Source of the DNA: a virus
Reading direction: 5' to 3' (one strand)
Length of the DNA stretch: 21,458 bases
IMG/VR virus record: IMGVR_UViG_3300031623_000061
Location: 1 to 21,458 of that record
A model generated the notes under the pieces. That model searched no databases. It was not told the DNA's origin and saw only the letters and a program-made list of their open reading frames with translations. The position numbers were made by a program, and so were the translations under genes. Shown here in pieces: positions 2,943 to 21,288 of the stretch (position 1 is its first letter; each line of letters starts with the position of its first letter).

Positions 2943-5767
2943 TACGCTTTCCTCAATCCGTCGGGCGTCTCACCCAGGTGGATAGCCCGAACCCGCGCAG
3001 ACCCAGACACCGCCACCTCGAATGTATCAGATTTGTATCCCGCTGGACAGCGAAAGATACTGTCGTCAGTGATGACCTGCGTGAACACTAAGTTCTTATC
3101 TTGCCACAACTGGAACACCATCGCGTAAACTGACGGTGCAGTACGGGTCGTGCGGGTCTGGCTATCCCCGTGGACAACGGTGCTGTTAAGCTCCCCAAAA
3201 TTATAAGTCGGCACCGACCCCACCAGATAATCTGTTGGGCCGTTGATCGTGTCGAGCTGCTGAGAGTTGGCCCACACAGTCACATTGTGCGTTGTTACGC
3301 CGTCATTATAGGACGTGTATGCCGCTGCGTCCTCGGTCGTTATATCGTAGTCTGCGATGATACGGGCCGCCCCGATGTTAAGATAGTTCTTGGTGATAAC
3401 CGCCTTAGACTTCCACTCCATCGGGCGCAAAGGCCAAGTGGAGCTGCCCCACTGCGTAATGTTACCTAGCTCATCACTGGAAGTGTACACCGCGTTGTCA
3501 GAGGGGTCAGTCCAGGCACTATTAGACTTATGCCCAGCGGTCACATAGAACCCACCGACTGTCTTGTCACTCTCGAATAAGAATGACCCAGCAGAATGTG
3601 CGCCAAAGTACTTGTCATTGTAGAAATGCCCGACGATAGTGGTGGGGTCAATGCCGTCATCCCACGTATCCCAGTCGTGAATATACTCAGTGGCCAGCGA
3701 CAACCCCGTGGAAGCAGACCACATGGCCAGGCCGCCGTATGTCGCGAATAGCACGCCGTAGCCCATGTTGACGACTGAGCGCTTGGAGAGGCAGGGGTAC
3801 GGCGTATCCACCTTAACGATACTCAGTGTGGCCGGGTCATTACCAGCGACGCGGTAAGCATACTCCCCGGTGAGCACGATGAGCGCCCCACCGAAAGACT
3901 CAATCGCCACGATATCATACTCAAAGGTGGTGCGGTAAGCTAGCGGCCAGGCCCAGGGCTTGCCCGGCTCAGCGAAGCACAACTGGTTGTCGAAGAACCC
4001 AGCGACCATATTATTCTGCGCCAGGATTATCCCGGTCATGGTCGCATCCGGTGCGTCGTAGTCATCGGAGAGCAGGATATCGACCAGGTTGAGATAGTCG
4101 AAGTCATCGGTGTAGCTGTCGTTGGTAACGATGCCCGTTGTATCAGCCGTGCTGGTATCGTCACGCTGACACCGGCCTGTCGTGTCAGCGGTAGTGCCCA
4201 CATCGCCAGCAGTCTGGGCGTATGTAAAGTGAGTGGTGTCCGTGACCGTTATTACCTCGTCCTCGCTATCGAAGGTCGAGTCTGTCATCAGTTTCATCGT
4301 GACCACATCACTTGTGGTAAAGCCATGCGCCACCGCTGTGGTTACAGTGACCACATTTGTGGCGCGGGCAACGGTGGACACCGCGATCCCGCCCAGTGAA
4401 GTGTACGCGAGTGTCGTCGTGCTACCCACCGCAGTAATCGCTACCGCTGTGGGCTCATCGTACGAGGCGTCAGCCATACCAGACACTGTGATCTTCTGGT
4501 TGACCAGCAACCCATGCGCCGTCGCCGTGGTCAGCGTTACCACGCTGGTGTTGCGCTCGACCAGGGTAGGCTCAATGCTATCATCCCCCCAGTAACGCGA
4601 GGTATTAGCTGGAAGCTCAGCGACGTCGTGATAGAGCGTACCGGTAGTGTCCGCCACCGAAGCAATATCGGCGTTGACCAGCGCGTAGCTGAAGGCCGTG
4701 TCGCTATCGACAACTGTGACTTCACCATCGACGATATCAAATGTACTGTCGGTGCACCCGCTCAGCTTGAAGCGATCACCCACGATGAAGTTATGGTGCG
4801 AAGCCATAGTGACAGTCGCGACATTGGAAGTCAGCGCCACGGAAGCCGTAGCCTGCGGGAACCAAAGCGTGGACAGCAGATAGAACTCAGTCCCCGAGGC
4901 GGACGCCAGCGTGCGGTATAGCTTCATCCCCTCGATGAAGTTGTTCCCAGAAGGCTTAGCAGTGGGGAGTCCGCTGACGATAACCGTCGTCCCCTCCTTC
5001 ATAAATAGCGTCTCCGAGGGGACAGCGCCAACAGACTCCTCACCCCAGGGCGTGTACCAAGTGTAGGTGTAGTCCCGCGTAATGGTGCCGCCGGACAGAT
5101 CAACCCGCCCATTAGTGTCAGCAGTGGATGCCTGAGTGGAGCCAGCGTTGTAGTACTCAAACGTTGTGGTACTTGTTACAGTGATCCGGGTGTTGGTCAC
5201 ATTGAAATCTTCGGCGGGCGATCCAGTGAAAGCCCGGACAGTAACCACGTTGCCATCGCGCAGCCCATGTGCCGCTGCCGTGGTGATAATAGCAGTGTTG
5301 CCGGAGTCTCGTTCGTATGACGCTGTCGTTGGTGAAGCGAAAGCCACTGCAGCTGTGGTCGGCGTCACCGCTGGGAGCGGCAGCCCTAGATCATAATACC
5401 CGCTCGTCGCGGGATACGGCTCTGATCCAGCGGTGGCTAGCGCGTACGTCGTAACCTTGGGCACCCCATCCCCGGTGTAATAGAAGCGCTGCTCGGCATC
5501 CGTGGTGGCTGAAATTGTGGTGATGTCTACATCGGCTAACCAAGTAAGCCAATCGATGGCAGCACCGGCGGAGGCGCGCATACCGAACAGCGTCTGCAGT
5601 ACTCCCAGGCGCGGAACACTGTTGATAACGGCGGGTTCGCTATATGGAATAAGGTCGCCAGAATACAGCTGCAGATTATAGGCAATCTGCCCAGCACCGT
5701 CTGGAAGAAGTTCTGGAGAAATCTTAGGCGCGGTGCCCAGAAACTTCTGTAGTTTGATAGCAGCCAT
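2942..5767 (-). CDS. Large tail protein, tail tube/nozzle-like, with four internal beta repeats
   Basis: 941 aa, ATG at 5767 with AGGA about 7 nt upstream and only 1 nt after the preceding stop. The N-terminus (FLGTAPKISPELLPDGAGQI, then LYSGDLIPY) matches the start of large podoviral tail proteins annotated as tubular or nozzle proteins. Four copies of a roughly 65-residue beta module occur at about residues 150-222, 308-377, 403-463 and 467-532. Each has a core like VVTVTTAxAHGF, a central TDSTFD or equivalent, and an end like TFxYxxxxxxxxxTADTTG. Between copies 1 and 2 is the conserved-looking segment RDYTYTWYTPWGEESVGAVP. Residues about 580-941 form a non-repetitive beta-rich region. This is probably the tail nozzle at the distal end of a short tail; the repeats may be Ig-like decorations. 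The fold assignment is inferred. Confidence 0.65.
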   Translation of the reverse strand: MAAIKLQKFLGTAPKISPELLPDGAGQIAYNLQLYSGDLIPYSEPAVINSVPRLGVLQTLFGMRASAGAAIDWLTWLADVDITTISATTDAEQRFYYTGDGVPKVTTYALATAGSEPYPATSGYYDLGLPLPAVTPTTAAVAFASPTTASYERDSGNTAIITTAAAHGLRDGNVVTVRAFTGSPAEDFNVTNTRITVTSTTTFEYYNAGSTQASTADTNGRVDLSGGTITRDYTYTWYTPWGEESVGAVPSETLFMKEGTTVIVSGLPTAKPSGNNFIEGMKLYRTLASASGTEFYLLSTLWFPQATASVALTSNVATVTMASHHNFIVGDRFKLSGCTDSTFDIVDGEVTVVDSDTAFSYALVNADIASVADTTGTLYHDVAELPANTSRYWGDDSIEPTLVERNTSVVTLTTATAHGLLVNQKITVSGMADASYDEPTAVAITAVGSTTTLAYTSLGGIAVSTVARATNVVTVTTAVAHGFTTSDVVTMKLMTDSTFDSEDEVITVTDTTHFTYAQTAGDVGTTADTTGRCQRDDTSTADTTGIVTNDSYTDDFDYLNLVDILLSDDYDAPDATMTGIILAQNNMVAGFFDNQLCFAEPGKPWAWPLAYRTTFEYDIVAIESFGGALIVLTGEYAYRVAGNDPATLSIVKVDTPYPCLSKRSVVNMGYGVLFATYGGLAMWSASTGLSLATEYIHDWDTWDDGIDPTTIVGHFYNDKYFGAHSAGSFLFESDKTVGGFYVTAGHKSNSAWTDPSDNAVYTSSDELGNITQWGSSTWPLRPMEWKSKAVITKNYLNIGAARIIADYDITTEDAAAYTSYNDGVTTHNVTVWANSQQLDTINGPTDYLVGSVPTYNFGELNSTVVHGDSQTRTTRTAPSVYAMVFQLWQDKNLVFTQVITDDSIFRCPAGYKSDTFEVAVSGSARVRAIHLGETPDGLRKA

Positions 5768-5768
5768 T

Positions 5769-6302
5769 CTACTTTCCTAACAGACCTATACCGAGTACCA
5801 TAAATCCGTAGCTCATTCTACCATATTCTTCCGCTGTGAAAGGACCAGATAATGACCCCAGACGCAATTCAAGTTTCGATAGACCAACATAAGTGGAAGC
5901 TACAATGGCTCCGCTCACGGCGAACGGCACTGTCCATAGAGATAACCCAGCAAGAAGACTGTATAAAGACGCTGCAAGGAGAGTTGGAAGCGCGAAGCCT
6001 AAAAGCATCCCCGAACGTCGTTGGCCGCTTTGGTCCCGGTTTGGCAGCCAGTACTCAAACCCAGGCATCCCGCGAGTCAGAAGCCATGATGTCACTCCTA
6101 CAGGCAGCAGGAGAGGCCACCCCTGCTGCAATACGAGAGCAAGAGTGGTGGAATATGCGAGCGGCTGGAGTGCTACAAGACCGGCGGTCAGGGATAGAGT
6201 GGCGGCGTATAGATTGGAGTGACTCCAGCGCCGATCCGAGCCGTCGTAGTACCGCCAGACGGAAGCTAATACCCCAAGAGCCGCAGAAAATAAGATAGTC
6301 AC
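5769..6302 (-). CDS. Multispanning membrane protein, unknown function
   Basis: 177 aa from a GTG at 6302 that overlaps the upstream TGA (GTGA junction), with AAGGGG 8 nt before it. A longer start at ATG 6374 (201 aa) would extend the first membrane segment but has no ribosome site and overlaps the upstream gene by 76 nt. Several hydrophobic stretches are visible: MTILFSAALGVLASVW; a Leu/Ala-rich region around LTAGLVALQPLAY; WPLLLPVGVTSWLL; MLLGFALPTLLAASLYSL; and VPFAVSGAIVAS. The C-terminus has another (YGFMVLGIGLLG). It follows the lysis genes and ends one base before the large tail gene. No family recognised. It could be a superinfection-exclusion or lysis accessory protein; that is a guess from topology and position. 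Confidence 0.6.
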   Translation of the reverse strand: MTILFSAALGVLASVWRYYDGSDRRWSHSNLYAATLSLTAGLVALQPLAYSTTLALVLQQGWPLLLPVGVTSWLLTRGMPGFEYWLPNRDQSGQRRSGMLLGFALPTLLAASLYSLLAGLSLWTVPFAVSGAIVASTYVGLSKLELRLGSLSGPFTAEEYGRMSYGFMVLGIGLLGK

Positions 6303-6682
6303 AATTCCGGCCCCTTGAAAAACATATCGGACACGTCGATTAGTTTTGTCCCGCTCGTTATCATGCAGGCCCACACTGCCGACCCCTTCGGCTGCGAAGA
6401 AAACGTAATAGTAAAGCTGCTATGGCCGTCCTCAGTCGTCCAAATTTCTGTAATGCCTGATCCTGATATGCCAGCCCACCGTGGCTCTTCACCGTGCTCT
6501 GATTTCAGCCACGCTGCGACGGTCGTCCTATAGCCACATTTCGGAATCGGGACCGGCACCTTTATGCCAGGAGGTGGGACTTGTTGCGGGAACGGCTCAG
6601 CCGCGTGACAAGCGCCCACGGCGAGGACAGAAATTAACAGAACTGCAAACCCAACAACCATATTTTTCACATACTTCATCAT
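6299..6682 (-). CDS. Exported protein with signal peptide, lysis-module neighbour
   Basis: 127 aa from ATG 6682, which overlaps the lysozyme stop (ATGATG context) and has AGGAGAAG immediately upstream. The alternative ATG at 6679 changes one residue. Residues 1-27 are a typical signal peptide: Lys near the start, a core of VVGFAVLLISVLAV, then GACHAAEP. Signal peptidase I could cut after A27 or A28. VGAC at 22-25 is an imperfect lipobox, so a lipoprotein is possible. A proline-rich linker (VPPPGIKVPVPIPK) follows, then a beta-rich domain with Cys residues (KCGY and WACMI) that could form a disulfide. Small exported proteins of this kind recur in phages and Alphaproteobacteria without known function. 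Position after the endolysin makes an outer-membrane or spanin-like lysis role conceivable but unproven. Confidence 0.6.
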   Translation of the reverse strand: MMKYVKNMVVGFAVLLISVLAVGACHAAEPFPQQVPPPGIKVPVPIPKCGYRTTVAAWLKSEHGEEPRWAGISGSGITEIWTTEDGHSSFTITFSSQPKGSAVWACMITSGTKLIDVSDMFFKGPEL

Positions 6683-7191
6683 ACTTCTCCTGCGAAAAGT
6701 TGTCTTTCGGCTTCTCTGCGTCGGATAAGACCTTTGAGTTTCCGACCACCGGCGAACACCCATCTGGAAAACTGTCCTTCGGCGGAGCCTAGGTCATGGC
6801 GTAATATCAGTCTTCTGAGCGTGGACGCCTTGAACGATCCACTACCTAAGTTATAGACGAAGCTGACGCAGGCCGAGAATTGGTTGTTGTTCAGAATATC
6901 AGTTCCGACCAGACGCCGACACGCTCTCCCTGAATTGGCGACTTCGCGCCTGAGAAGAGCCTGGGCCGTAAGTTTGGATATCGTCTGGTGATCGCCCGTA
7001 ACTCTCTTACCGTCCATCCCCCAAATACTCCCGAAGCCAATGGTCCATATCCCGATTGGATCGCGATACGCATCAGGCGAGTACCCTTCAAACGACTTGA
7101 TGAGTGCAAGGCCATCCTGGTTGATCTCTCCGTTCGATGGCAAGCCGCCGCCAAGGTTGTGGTCTTCAATTAGGGTGTCATGCAGGGTCAC
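6679..7191 (-). CDS. Endolysin, GH24 (T4-type) lysozyme
   Basis: 170 aa, starting at ATG 7191 inside the end of the upstream zinc-finger gene (14-nt overlap). It hydrolyses the beta-1,4 bond between N-acetylmuramic acid and N-acetylglucosamine in peptidoglycan. The GH24 catalytic motif is complete: E35 in SFEG, then eight residues to D44, then five to T50 in the segment DPIGIWTIGFG. The later FSACVSFVYNLGSGSF and RRREAERQLF stretches are also typical of the family. Length matches T4-type lysozymes (about 150-170 aa). A 25-residue N-terminal extension precedes the domain. No signal-anchor sequence is present, so release should depend on the holins encoded just upstream. The substrate-level assignment is from family knowledge. 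Confidence 0.95.
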   Translation of the reverse strand: MTLHDTLIEDHNLGGGLPSNGEINQDGLALIKSFEGYSPDAYRDPIGIWTIGFGSIWGMDGKRVTGDHQTISKLTAQALLRREVANSGRACRRLVGTDILNNNQFSACVSFVYNLGSGSFKASTLRRLILRHDLGSAEGQFSRWVFAGGRKLKGLIRRREAERQLFAGEV

Positions 7192-7378
7192 TGGATATTT
7201 CCTGGCCAGTGTTGATGACCAGCCCGACCACTTGACACGCTGCGTGAGGACACTCTAAACGGTTCAGCAGATTTTCTTCTGGCATAACCGCGATCCATCG
7301 ATGGTGACACGACAGGCACACCGCCTCGAAAACAACGTGAGGTCTGTGTTCGTCGATGTGGATAATGTCAGCGGTCAC
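7178..7378 (-). CDS. Small zinc-finger-like protein of the lysis cassette
   Basis: 66 aa from GTG 7378, overlapping the holin stop as GTGA and overlapping the lysozyme start by 14 nt. A longer reading of this frame runs back to 7609 but would lie inside the holin gene. The protein has C21-x2-C24 (CLSCHHRW) and C43-x4-C48 (CPHAAC), a likely zinc site. The sequence between reads IAVMPEE, and the tail reads GLVINTGQE. Small proteins with this CxxC...RWIAVMPEE...CP pattern occur beside holin and lysozyme genes in other phages. Their function is unknown to me. Confidence 0.75.
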   Translation of the reverse strand: MTADIIHIDEHRPHVVFEAVCLSCHHRWIAVMPEENLLNRLECPHAACQVVGLVINTGQEISSDPA

Positions 7379-7845
7379 TTGTAAGCCTGCCCTATCCGTT
7401 TCTCCTGGGTTCTGTTTCCAAACCAGTAGGCTACGATAGCCGAAAACAATATCATAAAGTCCTCGTTGAGAATTTGCTGTAGCGCCTCGATTGTAACGCC
7501 ATCGCGCTGCATGATTAGGTAGGCGATGGACCAGGTTACAACTAAGAACTCCGCTACAAAAAGGTAGGTAACAATAGGACGAATAGAGCCAGACAAGTTG
7601 GCTAACCAACGGCTACCCTTGCGTATTGTAGCAGACTGCTCTTTATGAGCTGCCTCGATCTCTCGGATATCCCCGTCCACGATGGCAGCTTCAAGTTTCT
7701 GCTCCCCCATCTTCAATTGGATTTCGGCCTGCTTGACCATCATGTTGATCTCATGCGTGTTGTCCTCCTTCGCCTGGAAGAAGTTAAGCACACTCGGCAA
7801 GAACGATGTTCCAAATCCGAGTAGCGTGGATAATAATGTGAACAT
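7375..7845 (-). CDS. Holin, 3-TM (GTA holin-like, PF11351 type)
   Basis: 156 aa, start overlapping the upstream stop (TGATG) with AAAGGTGG as ribosome site. Three hydrophobic segments: about residues 3-23 (LLSTLLGFGTSFLPSVLNFF), 88-112 (SIRPIVTYLFVAEFLVVTW and onward) and 128-142 (FMILFSAIVAYWFG). Between the first two is a charged helical region with many Glu, Lys and Gln (about 26-80). The order membrane segment, charged helix, SGSIRP, membrane segment, then FSAIVxxWFG and a basic tail fits the 3-TM holin family first described for gene-transfer-agent release. It would permeabilise the inner membrane and let the downstream GH24 lysozyme reach peptidoglycan. Confidence 0.8.
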   Translation of the reverse strand: MFTLLSTLLGFGTSFLPSVLNFFQAKEDNTHEINMMVKQAEIQLKMGEQKLEAAIVDGDIREIEAAHKEQSATIRKGSRWLANLSGSIRPIVTYLFVAEFLVVTWSIAYLIMQRDGVTIEALQQILNEDFMILFSAIVAYWFGNRTQEKRIGQAYK

Positions 7846-8153
7846 CAGCTACCACCTTTCATGCTCAGCGCAGCCCAGAGCATCGATGCCATCCCGGCGA
7901 TACCAGCGCCTATGACCAGTTTCTTGGCGTGGGCTTGCATATTCTCTGCAGACTTCCTGGAGCGTCTCAAGTAAGCGAAGTCAACTTGCGCCTGGATGAT
8001 ATGGTCAGTGTCAGCGGTATTTATACCGAGTTCCTGAAACGTCTCCTTGACGACTGCGTGGCCGGTTTCTCTGGCTATCTGCATCGCTTGCGACTTGGTG
8101 CAGTACTCATCGCCATCGTTGCGCCGTCTGCTGTCTTCGTGATCTTCAGCCAT
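7845..8153 (-). CDS. C-terminally anchored small membrane protein, holin-associated
   Basis: 102 aa. The N-terminal half is charged and helical: YCTKSQAMQIARETGHAVVK and FQELGINTADTDHIIQ, then YLRRSRKSAENMQAHAKK. Residues about 79-97 form one membrane segment (LVIGAGIAGMASMLWAAL). Short phage proteins with a CTKSxA motif, an LGIxxxD motif, an LRRxRKS motif and one C-terminal membrane helix are common immediately upstream of holins. They may be holin partners, antiholins or pinholins; the sequence does not say which. The stop abuts the 3-TM holin start. Confidence 0.65.
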   Translation of the reverse strand: MAEDHEDSRRRNDGDEYCTKSQAMQIARETGHAVVKETFQELGINTADTDHIIQAQVDFAYLRRSRKSAENMQAHAKKLVIGAGIAGMASMLWAALSMKGGS

Positions 8154-8158
8154 GTCTA

Positions 8159-8794
8159 TTACCTAGCTCTTGCTTGTGAAACGCCGCCGCCGCCGGACGG
8201 AAATTCTGCCCAGGCCGCGTAGATATATGTCTCAGCTACGTTGGGGTCAGTTGCGATCCGTAGCTTAAAGCCGTTGCTGAGAAGGTCGATGTTGTTGGCG
8301 GTTAGTTCAACCCCGGTTGTAAAGAATAGCGAGTCGTTATCGACGTTGTATCCCTCACGCTCACTATCGTAGATGTACCATTCGCAAGTGCTATCTATTG
8401 ATCTACAAATAATCATCTTGGGGCGAAACCCACAATACACAAATGTACCGTCAGCCGCGCCATTGCCTTCATAGTTCCCCAGTTTGCTAAACCCCTCGAC
8501 GCTGTGGAAGGCAGAGAACACATGGGCTTCCCCAGAAGCGTTGGGTCCACTGGTACTGAGAGAGATCAACGTGCTGGATGGTAGTGTAGAGTTCCAATAG
8601 CTCGCAGCGGACGCTGCCGCCGCATCTAGTCGGTCATCGAATGAGTTTTTATCCTTGTTAGACTTAGAAACAAATTGACTCAGGTCTTGCATGACGCGGG
8701 CTAGCTGCTGCTTAACGACAGCATACCCACCAGCGATAGTGCAGACAAGGATTGCAATCTGCACTATCGCTGGTGGGTATGCTGTCAACTCCAC
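8159..8794 (-). CDS. N-terminal membrane segment fused to DUF7483-like tail-fibre domain
   Basis: 211 aa from GTG 8794. GGGAG lies 7 nt upstream, within the end of the preceding gene. The frame extends back to ATG 8842, but that lies inside the preceding gene and lacks a ribosome site. Residues about 7-27 are a membrane segment (PPAIVQIAILVCTIAGGYAV), followed by a short polar helix (KQQLARVMQDLSQFVSKSNK). From about residue 75 to 199 the sequence matches the DUF7483 pattern as I know it from phage tail fibres: VEGFSKLGNYEGNG, ADGTFVYCGFRPKMIICR, WYIYDSEREGYN, LLSNGFKLR and ETYIYAAWAEFP. A GGGG linker and SQARAR tail end the protein. DUF7483 normally sits on large fibre proteins, so attachment to a membrane anchor is odd. 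The coding region for the membrane segment is a perfect inverted repeat. The call is by pattern, not by search. Confidence 0.65.
   Translation of the reverse strand: MELTAYPPAIVQIAILVCTIAGGYAVVKQQLARVMQDLSQFVSKSNKDKNSFDDRLDAAAASAASYWNSTLPSSTLISLSTSGPNASGEAHVFSAFHSVEGFSKLGNYEGNGAADGTFVYCGFRPKMIICRSIDSTCEWYIYDSEREGYNVDNDSLFFTTGVELTANNIDLLSNGFKLRIATDPNVAETYIYAAWAEFPSGGGGVSQARAR
8717..8786. repeat. Perfect inverted repeat: 29-bp arms, 12-nt loop
   Basis: Positions 8717-8745 are the exact reverse complement of 8758-8786, checked base by base; the loop is 8746-8757. Both arms lie in the coding sequence of the DUF7483-like gene, starting 8 nt after its GTG codon (8792-8794). The arms are in the same register on both strands, so each strand reads TAYPPAIVQ at one arm and CTIAGGYAV at the other. 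There is no T-run after it, so it does not look like a terminator. Confidence 0.97.
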
Positions 8795-8798
8795 TGCC

Positions 8799-8972
8799 TT
8801 ACTCCCGCAGCATCTGCACAATCCTGAAAACCAAGAATGCAATGGTCAGCAGGCCGACACTGATGCCGATCACCTGATTTATATAATCAAGCGCACCAGC
8901 CCAGGTGGTCACCGACCCCCCTAAAATAATCGATCCCTCTTTGACATTATCAGCAAAGGCTTGACTGATCAT
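8799..8972 (-). CDS. Small single-span membrane protein, holin candidate
   Basis: 57 aa, ATG 8972 overlapping the stop of the upstream gene (ATGA junction), TAA at 8799-8801. The N-terminus is polar (MISQAFADNVKEGSIILGGS), followed by VTTWAGALDYINQ. A membrane segment covers about residues 31-52 (INQVIGISVGLLTIAFLVFR). The C-terminus is short with positive and negative charges (QMLRE). Size and topology resemble class II/III-type small phage holins such as those of T7-like phages, and it begins a run of membrane protein genes leading to the 3-TM holin and lysozyme. No specific family recognised. With two further membrane proteins downstream, it could be the holin proper or an antiholin. Confidence 0.6.
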   Translation of the reverse strand: MISQAFADNVKEGSIILGGSVTTWAGALDYINQVIGISVGLLTIAFLVFRIVQMLRE

Positions 8973-9463: not shown

Positions 9464-10120
9464 CTATGCTGGACCGATAGACGCGGTAACACCGGCTGAT
9501 GCCGACCCCGTCCCGCCTGTCCGTACAGATGTAATAGCAAGTGGCGTTGACGCCGTGGCATTGGCGAGAGATGCACCAGAGGATAACACTGCATATTCCA
9601 TATTTGTCTCGTCATCCTCTGTGATGCCGGTCCATGCAATAGCTGTAGCAGTATTAAACGTGGAATATCCTATCGTTATTCCCCCCGCAACCGTGTTTAC
9701 ATTCAGCGTCATAGTCCCAGTAGATTCAGACGTTGCTGTGTCATTGGCTGTCGAAGATGCACCGTAAGTCGCCCAAACAGCGATAGCGCAGCCGTCATGC
9801 TGACCCGTTAGAACGATATCAGCAGTAGTGCCTGTTGGAACTGACGCGATCCATAACTCAGCATCAGCCGTGTCAGCAGCATTGAATCGTACCAACGCCG
9901 TCGCACTGACACCCCCTACCGTCACAGCGGTTAGTACACCGGATGCGTTATTATGCGCCGTAAAGCCCACCACCACTTTTCGGTTTGCAGCAGCCGTGCC
10001 TATAGCCTGGGCTGAAAAGGTAGTGGAACTTGATGCAGCAGGGTCAATAGCCGACGCTGTAAACGTCACCGTGGCTGCGGCGATACTAGCGGGAACCTGG
10101 AATATCTGGCCTAAACTCAT
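9464..10120 (-). CDS. Thr/Ala/Ser-rich beta protein, probable virion appendage
   Basis: 218 aa; ATG overlaps the tail-fibre stop (ATGA), so it is probably made with the fibre. The composition is dominated by small residues (Ala, Thr, Ser, Gly) with alternating hydrophobic positions, for example RKVVVGFTAHNNASGVLTAV then VTVGGVSATALV, ELWIASVPTG and IAVWATYGASS. This suggests an all-beta fold. Proteins with a VTIGGVSAT-like core recur in appendage regions of environmental phages, without known activity. A receptor-facing or decoration role is likely from neighbours; unproven. Confidence 0.55.
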   Translation of the reverse strand: MSLGQIFQVPASIAAATVTFTASAIDPAASSSTTFSAQAIGTAAANRKVVVGFTAHNNASGVLTAVTVGGVSATALVRFNAADTADAELWIASVPTGTTADIVLTGQHDGCAIAVWATYGASSTANDTATSESTGTMTLNVNTVAGGITIGYSTFNTATAIAWTGITEDDETNMEYAVLSSGASLANATASTPLAITSVRTGGTGSASAGVTASIGPA

Positions 10121-11550
10121 TGGAGTGCCGTGATATGCAAGTGTGAAAACCCATTGATGCGATTGCAGTACAACATGAAGTCGTCGGCGTTCGTCGTCGT
10201 CAGACTGTCACCCGTAACAATCGTCCAGCCGGAAGTTGTCACCGCGCCCGCTGAAGCGTTATTCGTCAATTGAATAACCAAGCTCGAACTCTCCGCCATA
10301 GGGGCGAGGGTGAACGCGCCCCCGTTGACTGCCTTCTTGCCGTTGCCGCCGCTGTAGATCGGAGTGTAGCTGCCGCTCGACTTGGTTCCGTCATCGTCGT
10401 CGGTCAGACCGAAGCCAGCCGTTAAGACATCATCGACATCGGATATTAGATTGTCGGCGTCGTATGCCTGCACGTTGGTGCCTATGACCAGTCCAGTTAT
10501 TACGTTGCCATTCAAATCCAGATCGCCGCCAAGCTGCGGGGTCGTGTCGTCCACGACGTTGGCCATCCCGCCACCGGTGGCACCAATATCTCCGGTACGT
10601 GAGAACATAACACGGATGCTATCGGTGTCTGCGAATGTACTGTTGCTGTCCACATGAGTGACCGCAAGCTCCGTCCAGCCTGCATTATCGGTGAGCCCGG
10701 TGATGTCGAACACCGCATAATTAGCCGGGGTGCCCGGCTCCACAATGCGCAGATACCCTTTGACAGTACTCGAACTATCATCCCAGGAAGCAATCCACGC
10801 GGCGATATCTGGGTTGCCCGCATCAGCAGTGGTGTCATCGATTGCAATGGCGGTCACGCTAGCCACGGTCGCGTTGTTGTACCGCAGGATACCCGCGCCT
10901 GGGTCAGCCATAGCAGTGGTCGTCGAAAACGTGAACTTAGGCTGCGCAGCTGAGGCTTCCCCGGTGGACGTAACGACATCCGCGTTGGTGGAGACAACAT
11001 CCGCGTTGGTGGAGACAACATCTGCGTTGGTGGAGACAACATCTGCTGCCGTATCAATAGCGTCCTGCGTCGTCGTAGCAGCATCGGCGTTTGTCGTGAC
11101 GACATCCGCGTTAGTGGAGACGACATCCGCTGCCGTAGCCGTAGCGTCAGCATCAGCGTTGGACTCGCTGGTCGCAGCATTGGTCTCGCTGGTCGCAGCA
11201 TTGGTCTCGCTGGTCGCAGCGTTGGTCTCGCTGGTCGCAGAGGCAGTGACAGTCTCGGTGAGCCCAGCGGCGGTTACACGCAACTCAATGCGGTCACCAG
11301 CAGAATACGCCCGGCCAGTCGTGCTCTCCTGCGCCCGAACAATGGTAAGTGTATCCGTGGAGCGAGTGGTGCACTTGATGATCTCTAAGTTATTCGAGGT
11401 GTCGATGAGCGTAGCGTAGAAGAAGTCACCGCCAGTGGGTGACGGATACCGTGTACCTTCTCCAGCGGCCACAGTAGCCGTCGTGGCAACATCCGTGATG
11501 CCGCTAGCAAGCGTGCTGTACGCGTTGTTCGTAAATAGCGCGGTTCCCAT
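10117..11550 (-). CDS. Tail fibre protein with heptad-length tandem repeats
   Basis: 477 aa; GAGGAG lies 7 nt before the ATG at 11550. Residues about 1-95 form an N-terminal domain (LFTNNAYSTLASGITDVAT, GGDFFYATLIDTSNNLEII, TIVRAQESTTGRAYSAGDRI), the type that attaches fibres or appendages in many phages. Residues about 104-195 contain two families of 7-residue repeats, TSETNAA and ADVVSTN. These are typical of trimeric coiled-coil or triple-beta shafts. The C-terminal part (about 200-477) is mostly beta, with DTTPQLGGDLDLNGNVITG, a motif widespread in phage fibre tips, near residue 340. A trimeric fibre used in host binding is the most likely role. The DNA repeats allow shaft-length change without frameshift. 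Confidence 0.85.
   Translation of the reverse strand: MGTALFTNNAYSTLASGITDVATTATVAAGEGTRYPSPTGGDFFYATLIDTSNNLEIIKCTTRSTDTLTIVRAQESTTGRAYSAGDRIELRVTAAGLTETVTASATSETNAATSETNAATSETNAATSESNADADATATAADVVSTNADVVTTNADAATTTQDAIDTAADVVSTNADVVSTNADVVSTNADVVTSTGEASAAQPKFTFSTTTAMADPGAGILRYNNATVASVTAIAIDDTTADAGNPDIAAWIASWDDSSSTVKGYLRIVEPGTPANYAVFDITGLTDNAGWTELAVTHVDSNSTFADTDSIRVMFSRTGDIGATGGGMANVVDDTTPQLGGDLDLNGNVITGLVIGTNVQAYDADNLISDVDDVLTAGFGLTDDDDGTKSSGSYTPIYSGGNGKKAVNGGAFTLAPMAESSSLVIQLTNNASAGAVTTSGWTIVTGDSLTTTNADDFMLYCNRINGFSHLHITALQ
10981..11043 (-). repeat. 21-bp tandem repeat in tail-fibre shaft, 3 units (ADVVSTN)
   Basis: Three units of 21 bp starting at 10981, 11002 and 11023. Units 1 and 2 are identical and unit 3 differs at its first base. 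Diverged copies lie further along near 11095-11130. Each unit encodes seven residues, read on the minus strand as ADVVSTN. Confidence 0.9.
11158..11241 (-). repeat. 21-bp tandem repeat in tail-fibre shaft, 4 units (TSETNAA)
   Basis: Four contiguous 21-bp units starting at 11158, 11179, 11200 and 11221, differing at only a few bases. Each encodes a seven-residue step of the type TSETNAA, with the outermost copies diverged. It lies about 115 bp from a second, unrelated 21-bp repeat array in the same gene. Confidence 0.9.
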
Positions 11551-20664: not shown

Positions 20665-21288
20665 TCAAGTGGGGGGCTTATACTTGAGAAGGTATTTTGC
20701 GGCCTCGAGCATACGCTTCGGGCTGTCCCCAAACAACCCAAGCCCGGTATTACACTTGGCACACACCACCCCCCTAACTTTCCCTGTGGTGTGGCAATGG
20801 TCCACGGCGAGTCTCTTTCTGCTAGCAGAAACCCCGCATATAGCACACCCACCACCTTGTAGAGCAATAATCTCATCGTAGTCCTCAGCGGTCACCCCGT
20901 ACTTTGCTTTTATCGCCGCAGCCCACGTATGGTCCTTATCATATACTACCTGGCACTCCCCACATAAGAACCCACGCCCCGGCTTCTGGTGGTGCACCCC
21001 GCACTCAGGGCACACTCGATCCCTACCGAAAACGCGCTGCTCAAAATTTTTCCAGCGTAAATCCATGGGGTCACTCCCAACAAACTTAAACTCGAACCGC
21101 TCGGGCTGCCGCTTGGTCATATGCACAACAGCGACTTTCCGGGCATTAACCTGTTTCCCGGCATGCTGTAGAATAACGCGGCTGTCCCGCCTCTCAATAT
21201 AGCAAGGACGCATTGTGGACAACCGCGTGATAACCCCAGTCTCAGGGCTGTATGAAAACAGGGTTAAAATTTCTTCGGTGCGTAACAT
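20665..21288 (-). CDS. Endonuclease VII-family nuclease with extra N-terminal region
   Basis: 207 aa, ATG 21288 with a GGGGGG ribosome site. The C-terminal domain is Endonuclease VII-like: C148-x2-C151 (CAICG), DHCH at 163-166, and C176-x2-C179-N180 (CAKCN). These correspond to the zinc and active-site residues of T4 gp49. T4 gp49 resolves Holliday junctions and branched DNA. A second CxxC pair lies at 93/96 (CPEC) and 109/112 (CGEC), probably another zinc site. The first 85 residues (FSYSPETGVITRLSTM, then an RWKNFEQR end) resemble the N-terminal part of HNH homing nucleases whose own His-rich core is missing. It could clear branched DNA before packaging or be a free-standing homing-type nuclease. 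Confidence 0.85.
   Translation of the reverse strand: MLRTEEILTLFSYSPETGVITRLSTMRPCYIERRDSRVILQHAGKQVNARKVAVVHMTKRQPERFEFKFVGSDPMDLRWKNFEQRVFGRDRVCPECGVHHQKPGRGFLCGECQVVYDKDHTWAAAIKAKYGVTAEDYDEIIALQGGGCAICGVSASRKRLAVDHCHTTGKVRGVVCAKCNTGLGLFGDSPKRMLEAAKYLLKYKPPT

Follow-up and report, generated by a model that had tools for sequence, protein, structure and literature searches.

A perfect 29-bp inverted repeat at the start of a viral gene as the probable footprint of a template switch

The start of one protein-coding gene in the viral DNA analysed here – IMG/VR record IMGVR_UViG_3300031623_000061, positions 1 to 21,458, a stretch of 21,458 nucleotides referred to below as the window – carries a perfect palindrome, which, judging from comparison with related sequences, is very probably the trace of a single, short intrachromosomal template-switch mutation within coding sequence. 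The features concerned are as follows:

8159 to 8794, minus strand: 211-aa ORF with a GTG start and an SD-like GGAG 7 nt upstream, its TM and coiled-coil N-terminus joined to a DUF7483 part
8717 to 8745, minus strand: native arm, on the 3' side in the gene, encoding ..CTIAGGYAV; conserved in 60 homologous N-termini and the putative template of the copied arm
8746 to 8757, minus strand: loop of 12 nt
8758 to 8786, minus strand: new arm, on the 5' side in the gene, reverse-complementary to the native arm throughout; its product reads TAYPPAIVQ, as against TASHAIQ in most relatives
8799 to 8972, minus strand: upstream hydrophobic ORF of 57 aa, its stop 12 nt before the first arm

The two arms are complementary at 29 of 29 positions and, with the 12-nt loop between them, make up an element of 70 bases, just as an earlier note on this DNA had described. 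Its dismissal of chance was also sound, given that only about 1e-11 such perfect repeats would be expected in this window at its base composition, even with loops of up to 100 nt allowed. A scan of 771 kb – the window together with phage loci, the loci partly overlapping – found no second perfect inverted repeat in which the arms measure at least 15 nt and lie at most 80 nt apart. The element lies within the start of the minus-strand ORF running from 8794 to 8159, and its first arm begins at nucleotide 9 of that ORF; the distance of 8 nt after the GTG given in the note is correct when counted from the first base of the codon, whereas only 5 nt separate the arm from the codon's end. The spacing of 12 nt between the TAA of the 57-aa ORF and the first arm stands as the note gave it, and this stop falls 4 nt before the GTG. 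Both arms are translated, the reading being V E L T A Y P P A I V Q I A I L V C T I A G G Y A V V K.

The gene that carries the palindrome is itself composite. Residues 1–57 of its product form an N-terminal TM and coiled-coil module that aligns with 116-aa proteins beginning MELT; beyond residue 57, the gene departs from this family, and what follows is the final stretch of DUF7483, 150 positions long (residues 57–199; PF24299, E 1.2e-40, profile positions 181–330 of 330). This in-frame fusion of a TM/coiled-coil N-terminus with the C-terminal portion of DUF7483, the latter at 8159–8624 on the minus strand, is shared, among the homologues compared, only by a twin contig discussed below. In other loci, DUF7483 occurs in separate proteins, which are tail-fibre-like or virion proteins and mostly larger, and in two of these loci (L087 and L088) the small membrane gene has a DUF7483-like gene on its upstream side; the literature searched yielded no mention of DUF7483. 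The start codon is GTG in the window and ATG in the homologues listed. The membrane helix has been retained, the mean hydropathy of its best 19 residues being 2.2 as against 1.5–1.7 in three relatives. Together, the fused C-terminus, the GTG start and the template-switch scar could point to relaxed constraint or to a remodelled protein.

Of the neighbouring ORFs, the upstream one of 57 aa has no family match and no relative found in IMG/VR, and a protein search with another, of 161 aa, likewise found no relatives. Elsewhere in the window, a 477-aa minus-strand protein (10117–11550) contains 21-nt tandem repeats at 10934–11258, encoding heptads of the TSETNAA / SADVVST type. This marine, palindrome-bearing phage also encodes, at 20665–21288 on the minus strand, a protein matching endonuclease VII (PHROG 307, E 5e-33), a family of enzymes that cut junctions and hairpins.

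The origin of the palindrome can be read from the relatives of the N-terminus. Searches with its first 60 residues, and then with a small alignment of them, returned 113 relatives in viral contigs, 80 of which were kept; removal of duplicates left 60 distinct N-termini, which come from marine viral contigs and do not include those of the window and its twin. Most of these relatives are proteins of 112–120 aa and consist of a single hydrophobic helix at the N-terminus, a coil-like central part and an H-N-G-K-H-P-like C-terminal end, a typical start being MELTASHAIQGVMLLATIAGGYAVVK. A genome-contig search with the N-terminal profile gave no match, and phage records contained none to the N-terminus. 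The palindrome is absent from all 60 N-termini, in which the longest perfect arm within the first 130 nt measures 4–9 nt as compared with 29 nt in the window. The nearest homologues are only about 50–59% identical over the N-terminus, and searches with a 24-mer and a 20-mer from the flanks, which returned only the twin contig, found no close relative carrying a pre-mutation allele, so that the ancestral sequence is reconstructed rather than seen.

The two arms fare very differently in this comparison. The native arm, which comprises the family's conserved (T)IAGGYAV codons, matches the collinear segment of the 60 homologues at a mean of 19.6 of 29 positions (range 16–24). The new arm, even at its best placement in the 5' region of the homologues, reaches 11.6 of 29, as against 12.2 of 29 for a shuffled control. 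With the 3' arm conserved and the 5' arm at the shuffled level, the new arm can be recognised as a reverse complement of the old one that replaced the original bases. What it replaced is also apparent: in the large MELT/MEVD group, the codons for S H A I (12 nt) stand between the LTA-type codons and a conserved Q, and at this position the window has Y P P A I V (18 nt), an in-frame gain of 6 nt. The flank on the start side is intact – VELT corresponds to MELT, and the upstream gene is present – which implies that copying returned to the right place.

Alignments that allow a template switch agree with this pattern. Aligned in this way rather than linearly, the window gains a mean of 18.6 against its homologues, with inverted-segment scores of up to 18, while the background among pairs of homologues is a mean gain of 9.7 and inverted-segment scores of at most 8. 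With most references, the inferred switch points fall at ORF nucleotides 8–9 and 29–37, in agreement with the two ends of the arm. Five references (L085, L104, L115, L141 and L132) place the best switch points elsewhere, as is to be expected at this divergence, and they lend the reading weaker support. A template switch had been mentioned in the earlier note as an alternative to regulation, and it now emerges strongly supported, one arm being homologous and the other not, and the inverted-segment alignments being the better ones.

From these data we infer the path of the polymerase, the direction of replication, the exact seed pairing, the number of events and their recency. In the ancestor, the L-T-A codons near the start could have paired by chance, over a few bases of the GACAGC/GCTGTC type, with the A-V codons further on. 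With the conserved TIAGGYAV segment already copied, the polymerase would then have folded back on the nascent strand, copied some 20–29 nt of the segment as a reverse complement and rejoined its proper template where the complementary LTA codons lie. Such a return point would be a natural one, because the T-A (ACA GCx) and A-V (GCT GTC) codons are partly complementary and each of the two is present, singly, in homologues at these positions; the two blocks are complementary over a stretch of at most 6 nt in any one homologue, a figure for the homologues and not for the true ancestor. The outcome would be the change from four codons (SHAI) to six (YPPAIV), with frame and membrane helix kept and a perfect 29-bp stem created. 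That the arms match perfectly suggests either a young event or later homogenisation, and more than one event may have been involved.

The same 70 bases are found, without a single difference, in the twin contig, IMGVR_UViG_3300031605_000183 (L083), which is 100% identical to the window over 5162–8829 and stops 43 nt past the element; its end at 8829 may reflect a drop in coverage caused by the hairpin. Elsewhere, the two contigs differ by 15 substitutions, between 993 and 1218, and by an indel of one 12-nt repeat unit. The substitutions are packed into 226 bp, mostly at multiples-of-three spacing, in contigs that are otherwise identical over 8.8 kb, and the patch looks recombined or rapidly diverging. 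The indel amounts to one unit of a 12-nt tandem repeat (CTCCTTGCGGGG) at 2026–2085 of the window.

These observations bear on the possibility that the palindrome is a foldback chimera, which the earlier note had raised for DNA amplification and assembly and which might also arise in library preparation. Amplification is known to generate perfect inverted repeats, the break in the twin contig so close to the element may mark poor coverage there, and the identity of the two contigs over 5162–8829 would be consistent with their coming from one sample. For the last of these reasons, the presence of the element in the twin, different as that contig is elsewhere, is only moderate evidence on its own. 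The anatomy of the element is stronger evidence than the second contig: a foldback chimera would run on as an inverted copy, whereas here the start codon and the upstream gene follow after 29 nt, as they should, and the frame is kept despite the 6-nt change, both of which argue against an assembly foldback. An artefact thus appears very improbable.

Still less probable is that the palindrome represents a mobile or repeated element of the REP or MITE kind, or a signal acting in cis in the phage, for instance in replication or packaging. Its compact 70-bp form would fit such an element, but the window record holds a single copy, the arm sequence occurs in no IMG/VR contig other than the window and its twin, a search of 50,697 phage records gave no significant match, and one of the arms is ordinary conserved coding sequence.

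Three further candidates were rejected. A conserved RNA element does not accord with the stemless state of the 60 homologous N-termini, and Rfam returned only sub-threshold, microRNA-shaped matches, such as any long hairpin would give. An intrinsic terminator, with a stem followed by a run of U, had been discounted in the earlier note, and no terminator-like site was found. Bypassing of the hairpin by ribosomes is at odds with a frame that is open through the hairpin and with the conserved TIAGGYAV residues inside it.

At the RNA level, the hairpin alone is predicted to fold with -60.1 kcal/mol, in line with the earlier expectation of a very stable hairpin in mRNA, and a 141-nt region containing it with -79.1 kcal/mol (z = -8.7 relative to shuffles). 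The stem begins at ORF nucleotide 9, inside the area that a ribosome covers at initiation, and stems of this length can attract RNase III; in the mRNA, it would likely lower initiation on the gene or serve as a candidate RNase III target. On the strength of these predictions, the hairpin may slow expression in this one lineage, where even a marked effect would be physically plausible, and the short distance between the upstream stop and the GTG makes translational coupling to the upstream ORF possible.

Whether the hairpin was selected in this lineage for such effects – to limit ribosome entry, to couple translation to the upstream ORF or to provide an RNase III site – is a different matter, and we consider it unlikely. 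The perfect match of the arms, the energy and position of the stem, the proximity of the upstream stop and the GTG that replaces the homologues' ATG would all be compatible with selection. Against this, the start region has a predicted energy of -71.7 kcal/mol in the window and of -32.6 ± 5.7 kcal/mol in 59 homologues, the two copies found, in the window and its twin, are identical and show no compensatory change, and no Rfam family reaches its gathering score. The predicted opening of the SD and the start codon, at 0.60 and 0.54, is moreover not lower than in homologues (0.50 and 0.47). The earlier suggestion that the stem throttles or couples translation is therefore left without comparative support: the relatives are stemless and the start-side arm is unrelated to the homologous loci, in which no pairing is seen, so that a conserved regulatory role is not supported. 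A version combining both ideas, in which one template switch instantly produced a regulatory hairpin that was then kept for restraining the newly fused TM-DUF7483 protein, or for exposing its message to RNase III, strikes us as similarly doubtful. On the preferred reading, that of a template-switch footprint, the stem is probably a tolerated by-product.

Mutations of this kind are already known. Template-switch mutations are well established in Escherichia coli, the earliest observations having come from yeast CYC1 and phage T4 rIIB (PMC7202029). The quasipalindrome mutations of E. coli lacZ and thyA and of T4 rIIB share with the event proposed here the use of the nascent strand as template and the making of a perfect inverted repeat, although most of them amend a few bases of an imperfect palindrome that was already there (PMC7202029), whereas here, with arms of at most 4–9 nt in the homologues, the stem was mostly made new and 6 nt were gained in frame. 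That a single switching event can create a perfect RNA hairpin de novo, as a reverse-complement repeat, has been described for microRNA and rRNA genes (PMC8794818); the hairpin in the window differs in lying in phage coding sequence beside a start codon. In the coding DNA of Saccharomyces cerevisiae, multinucleotide, amino-acid-changing footprints likewise occur at inverted repeats within genes, but they alter up to five neighbouring amino acids (PMC8604942), as compared with four codons turned into six and a 29-bp stem in the window. Perfect inverted repeats in coding genes, with frames open through both arms, are also found in the mitochondrial genes of Nematomorpha, where they are numerous, reach 284 bp and encode conserved residues in both arms (PMC6649704); the palindrome in the window is single and encodes conserved residues in its 3' arm only.

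Against this background, the window offers an unusually clean and legible case: a natural phage example of a whole perfect stem placed inside a gene, apparently in one mutational step, whose source, target and frame can be read from relatives. It illustrates that a striking palindrome can be the scar of a mutation rather than a regulator, and it provides a comparative test for coding palindromes in viral metagenomes, namely to ask whether one arm is homologous to relatives and the other is not.
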